A model generated the notes under the pieces. It was given only the letters and a program-made list of their open reading frames with translations. It did not search any database and was not told where the DNA came from. Below, piece after piece: positions 56,140-59,278 of a DNA stretch of 64,000 nt. A program made the position numbers and the translations under genes. Within the stretch, counting starts at the first letter, position 1; each line of letters starts with the position of its first letter. Where the stretch lies: NCBI RefSeq assembly GCF_000423005.1, contig NZ_KE383968.1, positions 267,482 through 331,481 on the forward strand, given 5' to 3'. This DNA comes from Gelidibacter mesophilus DSM 14095. Its GTDB lineage: Bacteria > Bacteroidota > Bacteroidia > Flavobacteriales > Flavobacteriaceae.

Positions 56140-58038
56140 ATGAGTGATGCGTTAAAACATGAGTGCGGAATTGCCCTCATCCGACTTTTAAAACCTTTAG
56201 AATTTTACAAAGAAAAATACGGCAGTGCATTTTATGGGGTCAATAAAATGTATTTGTTGATGGAAAAACAGCACAATCGTGGACAGGACGGTGCTGGTTT
56301 TGCAAGCATTAAGCTAGACACAGCACCTGGCGAGCGCTACATCAGTCGCGTGCGGTCCATAGCTCAGCAACCCATTCAGGATATTTTTGCCCAAATTAAT
56401 GAACGCATTAATAAAGAGTTTGCGGAACATCCTGAATACACCGAAGATGTGAACTTGCAAAAAAAGAACATTCCATATATAGGGGAGTTGCTTTTAGGAC
56501 ATGTACGCTACGGAACCTTTGGGAAAAACAGTGTTGAAAATGTTCATCCTTTTTTGAGACAGAACAACTGGATGCACAGAAATCTTATCGTGGCCGGAAA
56601 TTTCAACATGACGAATGTAAATCAGTTGTTTGAAGGTTTGGTTAAAATAGGACAGCATCCTAAAGAAAAGGCAGATACCGTTACCATAATGGAAAAGATC
56701 GGTCATTTTCTAGACGATGCGGTTGCCAAAAAGTACAAGCAACTTAAATACGAAGGCTATAATAAAAACGAATGCTCACCTTTGATCGCTGACCGTCTCA
56801 ATGTTGCAAAAATATTGAAGCGCTCTGCGAAAGACTGGGATGGCGGTTATGCGATAGCTGGACTTTTAGGACACGGAGATTCTTTTGTGCTTCGCGATCC
56901 TGCAGGCATACGACCGGCATATTATTATCAAGACGATGAGATTGTAGTGGTTGCTTCTGAACGTCCCGTCATCCAAACGGTATTTAACGTCAATTTTGAG
57001 GACGTCAAAGAATTGACACCGGGACATGCCATCATTACCAAAAAATCTGGAGAAACCTCCATCAAAAAAATATTAGAACCTACAGAGCGCAAGGCCTGCT
57101 CTTTTGAACGCATCTATTTCTCCAGAGGGAGTGATGCCGAAATATATCAAGAACGAAAAAAATTAGGAAAGTTGCTAATGCCAAAAGTCTTGGAGGCCAT
57201 TGAATTTGACACTAAGAATACGGTGTTTTCCTATATCCCAAATACGGCTGAAACCTCATTTTTTGGAATGATCGAAACCGTTGAAGCACATCTCAACAAG
57301 AAAAAAACAGAAGCCATCCTTAACGGCAACGGCGAATTGTCTGCTGAAAAGGTAACCCAAATATTATCAGAACGCCCACGTATTGAAAAAATAGCCATTA
57401 AGGATGTTAAACTGAGAACTTTTATAACTGAGGATAGCAGTAGAGACGATCTGGTAGCCCATGTTTACGACGTTACTTATGGGGTCATAAAACCTACAGA
57501 CAATCTAGTTATTATCGATGATAGTATTGTACGTGGAACAACCTTAAAAATGAGCATCATTAAGATGATGGATCGCTTGAACCCGAAAAAAATAGTGGTT
57601 GTTTCTTCAGCACCTCAAATTCGTTATCCTGATTGTTACGGAATTGACATGGCTAGACTGGAAGATCTCATTGCTTTTAGAGCGATGCTAGATTTGTTAA
57701 AAGAAAACAACAAATACCATCTTGTAGAAGAGGTATATTCCAAATGCAAAGCTCAAGAGCATCTAGAGGACAAAGAAGTAAGAAATTTTGTAAAAGAGCT
57801 GTACAATCAATTTAGTGCGGAAGAGATTTCAGATAAAATAGCTGAACTTATTTGCGATTCTTCAGTCAAAGCAGAGGTCAAAACAATATTTCAAACTATT
57901 GAAAACTTGCACCTGGCATGCCCAAAAAACCTAGGAGATTGGTATTTTACAGGAAATTATCCAACAGCTGGAGGCAACAGGGTGGTCAATAGAGCTTTTA
58001 TCAATTTTTATGAAGGCAATAATAAGAGAGCTTATTAA
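56140..58038 (+). CDS. purF: Amidophosphoribosyltransferase, long Bacteroidota form
   Basis: PurF starts purine synthesis by moving an amide from glutamine to PRPP. The N-terminal glutamine amidotransferase domain has its nucleophile at Cys9 (MSDALKHECGIALI), implying removal of an eight-residue propeptide, and HNRGQDGAGFASI and GHVRYGTFG follow. The PRPP-binding motif is VIIDDSIVRGTTLK, and SAPQIRYPDCYGIDMA follows. At 632 residues it is about 120-150 longer than the E. coli or B. subtilis enzyme, with extra segments in both halves; from memory this long form is usual in flavobacteria. A TAAATTTG box lies at 56076-56083. Confidence 0.95.
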   Translation: MSDALKHECGIALIRLLKPLEFYKEKYGSAFYGVNKMYLLMEKQHNRGQDGAGFASIKLDTAPGERYISRVRSIAQQPIQDIFAQINERINKEFAEHPEYTEDVNLQKKNIPYIGELLLGHVRYGTFGKNSVENVHPFLRQNNWMHRNLIVAGNFNMTNVNQLFEGLVKIGQHPKEKADTVTIMEKIGHFLDDAVAKKYKQLKYEGYNKNECSPLIADRLNVAKILKRSAKDWDGGYAIAGLLGHGDSFVLRDPAGIRPAYYYQDDEIVVVASERPVIQTVFNVNFEDVKELTPGHAIITKKSGETSIKKILEPTERKACSFERIYFSRGSDAEIYQERKKLGKLLMPKVLEAIEFDTKNTVFSYIPNTAETSFFGMIETVEAHLNKKKTEAILNGNGELSAEKVTQILSERPRIEKIAIKDVKLRTFITEDSSRDDLVAHVYDVTYGVIKPTDNLVIIDDSIVRGTTLKMSIIKMMDRLNPKKIVVVSSAPQIRYPDCYGIDMARLEDLIAFRAMLDLLKENNKYHLVEEVYSKCKAQEHLEDKEVRNFVKELYNQFSAEEISDKIAELICDSSVKAEVKTIFQTIENLHLACPKNLGDWYFTGNYPTAGGNRVVNRAFINFYEGNNKRAY

Positions 58039-58152
58039 CTTTGAAACGAATGAAACACCCCAGTTTCAGTGCAAAATCACGCTTAATCGGATAATTTAGT
58101 AATTCATCTAAATTTTATGTGAACTTGTTAAAATTCAATATACTTTAGTATC

Positions 58153-58226
58153 ACCATAACATAAGTAGGTTAAGTTCATGGTAGATTTGGGGCAAAAAAA
58201 GGTAAACATCTGTTTACCTTTTTTTA
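58153..58226 (+). ncRNA. Candidate small RNA, tandem copy 1
   Basis: A TACTTTAG box (58141-58148, one mismatch from TAnnTTTG) precedes ACCATAACATAAGTAGG, then TTAAGTTCATGGTAG, ATTTGGGGC and an A-run, and then a perfect terminator stem AGGTAAAC-ATCT-GTTTACCT with a T-run. ACCATAAC can pair with GTTCATGGT. There is no open reading frame of note. The unit is repeated at 58415 with the same spacing throughout. Confidence 0.6.
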
Positions 58227-58414
58227 TGCCCTTTTTTATTTGCGATACTCTATTGATTAGCAAACTGATAGTTAAACATACTTAAATAATTACTTTTTAG
58301 AGGAAAACCACGTTTTACCTGTATTTTCGACAATACAACTTCATTCAGCCTAATTTATACGTAGTTTATCTAATAAATTAAATGATTACATTTTAGTCCA
58401 CTTATATTTGCTTC

Positions 58415-58486
58415 ACCATAACATAAGTAGGTTAAGTTTATGGTAGATTTGGGGCAAAAAAGGTGGACACTCGTCCACCTTTTTTC
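58415..58486 (+). ncRNA. Candidate small RNA, tandem copy 2
   Basis: A perfect TATATTTG box (58403-58410) sits at exactly the same distance from the conserved core as in copy 1. The 50-base core differs from copy 1 by one substitution and one base of A-run length. The terminator is AGGTGGAC-ACTC-GTCCACCT: same 8-bp stem and 4-base loop, but with two compensatory pair changes, so structure rather than sequence is kept. Confidence 0.62.
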
Positions 58487-58570
58487 ATTTCCACACCTAC
58501 GAAAGCCGGTGTCTTATTAATCGCATTTCCAAATAAGATTTTTCAAAAACCTAAATCCAGTTTAAATAAA

Positions 58571-58599
58571 AAAAGCAAACTTTAAAAAGTTTGCTCTTA
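58571..58599 (-). terminator. Distal terminator for sodA
   Basis: AGCAAACTTT (58574-58583) and AAAGTTTGCT (58586-58595) form a perfect 10-bp stem. Read on the minus strand it is followed by a seven-T run. Confidence 0.78.
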
Positions 58600-58607
58600 T
58601 CATTAAA

Positions 58608-58640
58608 AAACCTGCAGGGCTTCACAAACCTTGCAGGTTG
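58608..58640 (-). terminator. Proximal terminator for sodA
   Basis: AACCTGCA and TGCAGGTT pair around a 15-base loop and lead into a six-T run on the minus strand, 30 bases after the sodA stop. The AACCTTGCAGGTT part also occurs 3' of sufB near 18826. Confidence 0.65.
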
Positions 58641-58669
58641 ATTTTTAAAACATTTTAAATATCTGCATA

Positions 58670-59278
58670 TTATTTTGCTTCCGCATAGCGTCTTTCAACT
58701 TCATTCCAGTTGATTACATTAAAAAATGCATTGATGTAATCAGGTCTTCTATTTTGGTAGTTCAAATAGTAAGCGTGTTCCCAGACGTCCAATCCTAAAA
58801 TTGGAGTTCCTCCACAGCCTACACCAGGCATCAATGGATTATCTTGGTTTGGTGTTGAGCAAATTTTTACTTTTCCGCCCTTGTGCACGCACAACCAAGC
58901 CCATCCTGAACCAAATTGTGTAGCAGCAGCCTTGCTAAATTCATCTTTAAATGCATCCACTGATTCAAACTCAGCTTCAATAGCATCTTTCAATCCGCCA
59001 GACAAACGTCCTTTCCCTTCTGGGTTCATTACTTCCCAGAAAAGTGAATGGTTAAAAAAACCGCCACCGTTATTTCTAACAGCTTTATTGTCCATATCTA
59101 AGTTGATCAAGATATTTTCGATCGTTTTTCCTTCGAGGTCTGTACCTTCAATAGCAGCATTCAGTTTATCAGTGTACCCTTGATGGTGTTTTGTATAATG
59201 TATTTCCATTGTTTTTGCATCAATATGAGGCTCTAAAGCATCATATGCGTATTTTAATTTCGGTAATTCGAAAGCCAT
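58670..59278 (-). CDS. sodA: Superoxide dismutase, Mn/Fe type
   Basis: The enzyme dismutates superoxide using Mn or Fe. The 202-residue protein has metal ligands in [20 protein letters not shown] and [19 protein letters not shown] (Asp and His), all present. The [11 protein letters not shown] stretch and [11 protein letters not shown] fit either metal; I would not choose. No signal peptide, so cytoplasmic. A TAAATTTG box on the minus strand lies at 59316-59323. Two hairpin terminators follow the gene. Confidence 0.96.

Follow-up and report, generated by a model that had tools for sequence, protein, structure and literature searches.

The two tandem units that lie between purF and sodA in the window (the whole stretch of 64,000 nucleotides analysed here) are, as we judge highly probable even without expression data, copies of a FopS-like multicopy small RNA (sRNA) that represses the surface-protein regulon of its own transcription factor (TF). 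They appear to be part of an undescribed regulatory circuit for surface proteins in Flavobacteriaceae, in which the two units would be paralogous genes of a trans-acting, base-pairing sRNA of this family. The promoter, the seed, the terminator, the shared TF site and the complementarity to start codons were all established computationally. Repression by blocked initiation is inferred by analogy with FopS, for which it was demonstrated experimentally that pairing with the start codon blocks initiation (PMC11697453). Flavobacteriaceae are major degraders of marine polysaccharides, yet their post-transcriptional control is almost unknown and our literature searches gave only one functionally studied sRNA. 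The present sRNA is deeply conserved and its strongest target can be named; with it come a common promoter site by which a regulon is defined and a new conserved small protein.

A core of 49 nt starts at 58151 and again at 58413, i.e. with a spacing of 262 and one substitution between the two, and a 30-nt core pattern gave 2 matches in the window as against 0 in shuffled windows. Each core is preceded by a -7 box on the forward strand, TACTTTAG for copy 1 (58141-58148) and TATATTTG for copy 2 (58403-58410), both of the type TAnnTTTG, the sigma-A -7 box of flavobacteria that is located at -12 to -5 (PMC9723704). Four bases separate the end of either box from the A of ACCATAAC, and because the box is placed at -12 to -5 this A (58153 and 58415) is the predicted +1. 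The units therefore extend on the forward strand over 58153-58225 (copy 1, 73 nt with terminator, C-type seed GTTCATGG) and 58415-58485 (copy 2, 71 nt with terminator, T-type seed GTTTATGG), the predicted 5′ end of both RNAs reading ACCAUAAC. A previous sequence-only reading had described a core of about 50 bases present twice at a distance of 262 with a -7-like box equally far before each, both of which are borne out, and its proposal of a small RNA of about 70 nt present in several copies is supported. The array is flanked by two conserved neighbours, purF upstream (56140-58038, forward strand) and the convergent sodA downstream (58670-59278, reverse strand). Two more hairpins are present between the array and sodA (58561-58650), which are probably minus-strand terminators of sodA.

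Both units end in an intrinsic terminator on the forward strand, AGGTAAAC-ATCT-GTTTACCT in copy 1 (58200-58219) and AGGTGGAC-ACTC-GTCCACCT in copy 2 (58461-58480), each followed by a T run. In an alignment of 24 copies, 8 of the 9 stem pairs are altered on both sides, confirming the compensatory changes that had been claimed for the terminator stems. The inner pairing proposed at the same time, a 5′ hairpin between ACCATAAC and GTTYATGGT, fared less well: it does form in silico, but no covariation was found in the 24 copies (five pairs are invariant and in one just a single side changes). Moreover, 17 of the copies, all those carrying GTTCATGG, have pair 6-25 disrupted. The hairpin region is better read as a seed. 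The seed is about 41 nt long and near-invariant, and its stretch CAUAAGUAGGUUAAGUUYAUGGUAGAUUUGGGG is by computation complementary to the start-codon regions of the target mRNAs, with the seed element GAUUUGGG facing the target element CCCAAAUC. Within the window this complementary region is CATAAGTAGGTTAAGTTCATGGTAGATTTGGGGC in copy 1 (58160-58193, forward strand) and CATAAGTAGGTTAAGTTTATGGTAGATTTGGGGC in copy 2 (58422-58455, forward strand), the latter giving the best match to the small-ORF mRNA described below. The conservation of the core is thus accounted for by its role as seed. Action through the single-stranded GATTTGGGG stretch, as suggested earlier, is supported, except that GGGGC does not act alone; nearly the whole core pairs with the targets, and therefore the inner hairpin can at most be a resting fold.

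In a search of 98 relatives, the element was present throughout Flavobacteriaceae and not convincingly outside. An exact core pattern occurs in at least 118 genome-contig stretches. The titles of the 80 that were listed either name Flavobacteriaceae (Zobellia, Maribacter, Winogradskyella, Aquimarina, Flavobacterium and others) or are those of unresolved MAGs. The RNA is nearly unchanged and in the same place in more than 100 genomes of the family. Searches of viral contigs, phages and plasmids gave no homologue. Among 134 loci with the core, purF is present in 117, always on the same strand as the sRNA; purF together with sodA occurs in 96, sodA only in 13 and neither in 4, such that purF and/or sodA adjoins the sRNA in 130. 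Homologues between purF and sodA, whose absence had been named beforehand as a refutation, are thus present. The number of tandem copies per locus varies from 1 to 6, and the copies fall into two sequence groups, A (ACCATAACATAAGTAGGTTAAGTTYATGGTAGATTTGGGGC) and B (CCATAGCATAAGTAGGTTAAGTTCATGGTAAGATTTGGGG). It should be kept in mind that all our cross-genome counts (loci, co-occurrence, pairing) are phylogenetically non-independent. In group-B arrays (L036, L037, L059, L061 and others) the region upstream of the last copy, TTATTTCYCACAATACCAGTAATTTAG, is often strongly conserved but unlike that of the other copies and lacks an evident TF site, and the seed end is altered (GGGACGAAAAGGG), which suggests that the last copies of many such arrays are under separate regulation. 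Two lone copies away from purF (L050 and L051, G013:C13) have another terminator and carry GGGTAAAAG after the seed.

Rfam at the gathering cut-off gave no match for the window and ten related loci, and at relaxed thresholds nothing convincing was seen, the many E-value matches being mostly terminators. Flavo-1 (RF01705), an identity that had been left undecided, was absent even at E ≤ 10 on 58040-58660 and is excluded by this search. The nearest Rfam family is FopS of Bacteroides (BTncRNA_FopS, RF04319), for which the copy-1 unit scores 22.1 bits as against a gathering value of 56. Like the present RNA, FopS is multicopy, 65-70 nt long and driven by a sigma-A promoter, has a single-stranded 5′ seed followed by an intrinsic terminator, and pairs around the start codons of surface-protein mRNAs (in our case computationally), and both seeds hold UUCAUGGU..AGAUUU. 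Membership of the family nevertheless fails on score, on distribution and on the missing RRM_1 protein: RF04319 was over cut-off in 0 of 148 genomes of the phylum and in the Bacteroides control alone, and no match to RRM_1 (PF00076, RbpB-type) was found in the own genome, the Bacteroides control again matching. Unlike FopS, our sRNA is present as tandem copies at one conserved locus and has a TF site in common with its targets. Our findings point to start-codon sRNAs of the FopS type beyond Bacteroides that lack the RRM protein by which those of Bacteroides are modulated, and the evolution of the mechanism therefore becomes testable. GibS of Bacteroides thetaiotaomicron is likewise a base-pairing sRNA, whose R1 seed is related to FopS (PMC11697453), but it has another promoter and combines two seeds in its only gene. 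Rfp18 of Flavobacterium psychrophilum resembles our RNA in being conserved, in belonging to the same family of bacteria and in having surface or secreted targets; however, it is described as having at least 3 stem-loops, the third of which pairs with its metalloprotease targets (PMC9723704), and so differs by description, no sequence comparison having been made, from the present two-hairpin RNA. The literature search for the sRNA itself gave no match.

The search of the relatives also matched short repeated pieces of the core at a second locus, which is downstream of scoB in the relatives inspected and on contig C7 in the own genome. An unannotated ORF of 33-42 aa is found on the scoB strand (MNTAPNLPKPTLSESKLFETFQKTLNLLKGILMLTKKIFML in the own genome), and because this ORF and its promoter are read on that strand the core pieces are antisense. 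The mRNA is the strongest predicted target and encodes an unknown protein, given as 41 aa, with the cationic/hydrophobic C-terminus LTKKxFML. It matched no Pfam family above cut-off and nothing in NCBIfam, and its pN/pS of 0.31 (codons 12-41, within the genus) indicates purifying selection. The repeated segment might instead be taken for a protein-binding or promoter-like element, with the scoB repeats as a same-strand decoy, given that TAGATTTG within it fits the TAnnTTTG -7 box and that the segment recurs about 40 nt apart in the first search; yet this is hardly tenable, as the promoter, the ORF and the TF site at scoB are on the opposite strand with the segment antisense to the transcript, and compact complementarity at a start codon is unexpected for a protein site. 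The same-strand decoy was dropped on finding the ORF and promoter on the other strand.

As a target of the sRNA, the small-ORF mRNA contains two or three, by another count 2-4 imperfect, complements of the core, with two of them in the 5′ UTR and one inside the first codons, and the start codon is among the stretches covered. Duplex energies in 25 genomes range from -27 to -50 kcal/mol, with z values of -3 to -11 against shuffled mRNA, and the duplex mostly spans the ATG (about -30 to +4), reaching 28 contiguous base pairs in one genome. On ranking 971 start regions of the own genome (1.26 Mb, 28% of it; mean -15.8, sd 3.9), the small ORF came first at -41.8 kcal/mol, 6.7 SD off the mean, the next-best being at -30.3. 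Beyond this 28% the genome was covered by pattern searches only and not by start-region energies, and RNAduplex energies ignore accessibility and kinetics. In most genomes the group A mRNAs prefer the A sRNA, by a margin of 6-9 kcal. In group B both partners have changed yet the pairing is kept (CUAUGG against CCAUAG); these pairings are weaker (-27 to -35) and the cognate preference is not seen in all, two mRNAs preferring their own group. Of the 34 genomes with a strong match to the small-ORF HMM (E<1e-9), all but one carry the sRNA (33), the exception (G022) being 84% complete, and 12 genomes of the family without the sRNA gave no strong match. Several genomes (G015, G028, G038, G053) have the sRNA and no recognisable small ORF. 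At one locus (L047, G013:C12, about 1558-1640) the small ORF is apparently frameshifted in a T run with the sRNA sites retained, which may be a pseudogene or a sequencing error.

Targeting of a short ORF at its start region by an sRNA is reminiscent of type I toxin-antitoxin systems (e.g. TimP-TimR), whose criterion of start-region complementarity is fulfilled here, unlike that of encoding at a single locus. The sRNA would then mainly silence a toxic amphipathic peptide of 33-42 aa, other targets being incidental, and it is true that complementarity is at its longest and strongest with the small ORF, which is short, ends in a cationic/hydrophobic C-terminus and co-occurs with the sRNA. We consider this distinctly unlikely, since the two are unlinked in the genomes examined (in the own genome the sRNA is on contig C2 by purF and the small ORF on C7 by scoB, and they are separate in relatives too), several tandem sRNA copies and additional targets are present, other mRNAs of the regulon pair significantly when the small ORFs are left out (p=1e-8), and the sRNA is retained in genomes without a recognisable ORF, as are its sites in G013, where the ORF is frameshifted.

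The TF site motif common to the sRNA genes and their targets, GYATTTCATCGA, is undescribed, and GTATTTCATCGA or GCATTTCATCGA is found upstream of the small ORF and of two among the next-best targets, which encode a secreted protein of 436 aa and a lipoprotein with a CAP domain (PF00188). The site is real, since none of the 8 exact copies in the own genome lies within a gene and four relatives have 49 exact copies as against 3 for the reversed pattern. Among the 110-nt regions preceding 283 distinct sRNA copies, 25 contain the exact motif (shuffles 0) and 106 contain it at up to 2 mismatches (shuffles 2.2), the sites piling up at -74 and -54 as a 20-bp direct repeat. The own-genome sites at -54 are degenerate: on the forward strand, copy 1 has the direct repeat at 58079-58110, made of ACGCTTAATCGG (-74, 7/12, degenerate) and GTAATTCATCTA (-54, 10/12), and copy 2 has a half-site GTAGTTTATCTA at -54 (58361-58372, 9/12). 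Direct repeats of about 20 bp are typical of LytTR regulators; a LytTR-type response regulator is one guess for the factor, whose identity is undetermined. The literature search for this site in a regulatory context gave no match.

Among the genes behind the TF site are those for secreted or T9SS-like proteins, together with the CAP lipoprotein gene and the small ORF. Taking the four relatives together, 38 such genes have a mean duplex energy of -22.2 as compared to -14.7 for 460 others (p=2.4e-10, and still significant at the value given above on excluding the small ORFs), and in the own genome 10 such genes pair more strongly than 910 others with p=0.005. The energy contrast reaches -7.0 with the real sRNA as against -1.7±0.9 with 60 shuffled sRNAs, and is about equal when the comparison is made with genes having signal-peptide-like starts. 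Therefore, the contrast is not due to leader composition. Orthologues of the CAP lipoprotein in three genera retain both the TF site and the sRNA pairing. Some genes of the regulon (e.g. L387, L408) do not pair with the sRNA. The loop-seed pattern TTAACCTACTTATG shows no genome-wide enrichment (39 as against 108 in the control), except that an exact site is found at the start of the CAP lipoprotein, and a search with CCAAATCTACCATGAA gave no additional strong target. A second conserved intergenic RNA of about 140 nt, which we call RNA-X (L385, about 1550-1700; own genome G000:C1, about 221400-221560; further instances L415-, L421-, L422-, L450-), has this TF site too, together with a box of the TAnnTTTG type, an invariant TTAGTTCAATGGATTAATTAATTAATATTTGC and a terminator, and its stretch ACCCTRAATCTA is complementary to the sRNA seed over 11-13 bp. 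It has no match in Rfam and is possibly a sponge or a partner sRNA.

The small-ORF mRNA could itself be a sponge that titrates the sRNA, its peptide being secondary and the secreted-protein mRNAs the real targets. Such a role would fit the 2-4 imperfect sites on one mRNA, with two in the 5′ UTR and one in the first codons, and RNA-X as a second regulon RNA with a complementary stretch of 11-13 nt; but outside the sites the ORF shows purifying selection and the best duplex is usually over its own start codon, so that we find this explanation rather unlikely, though not to be dismissed. As to the sign of the regulation, opening or stabilisation of the 5′ UTR is a known sRNA mechanism. Activation of the targets by our sRNA would also have a precedent in Rfp18, a Flavobacterium sRNA that supports expression of its targets (PMC9723704), but the duplexes cover the ATG itself and such pairing blocks initiation in FopS (PMC11697453), which makes activation very unlikely. 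On the preferred reading as a repressor, the sRNA is predicted to cover the start codon and block translation initiation, this repression being inferred. The inferred architecture would be a mixed feed-forward loop, whereby the TF acts on both the sRNA and the targets and the sRNA represses the targets. If the TF activates both, the loop would be incoherent and may cap or delay surface-protein synthesis, with the copy number of the sRNA setting the dose and the C/T seed variants tuning target choice. An extension to a three-layer, family-wide circuit of direct-repeat TF, sRNA and targets, in which the small-ORF mRNA and RNA-X, also driven by the TF, serve as sponges that set the threshold for repressing the other regulon genes, is possible and is offered only tentatively.

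Two other genes may be mentioned. A conserved CxxC-containing protein of 88-90 aa lies behind the TF site in two genera (L435, L440), and the L435 copy gave no match in a Pfam scan. The gene of a 3485-aa secreted protein (G000:C1:748986; L327, about 8986) is situated some 6 kb away from a different predicted target, and both seed complements, AATCTACC and AACCTACT, occur around the start codon of this gene.
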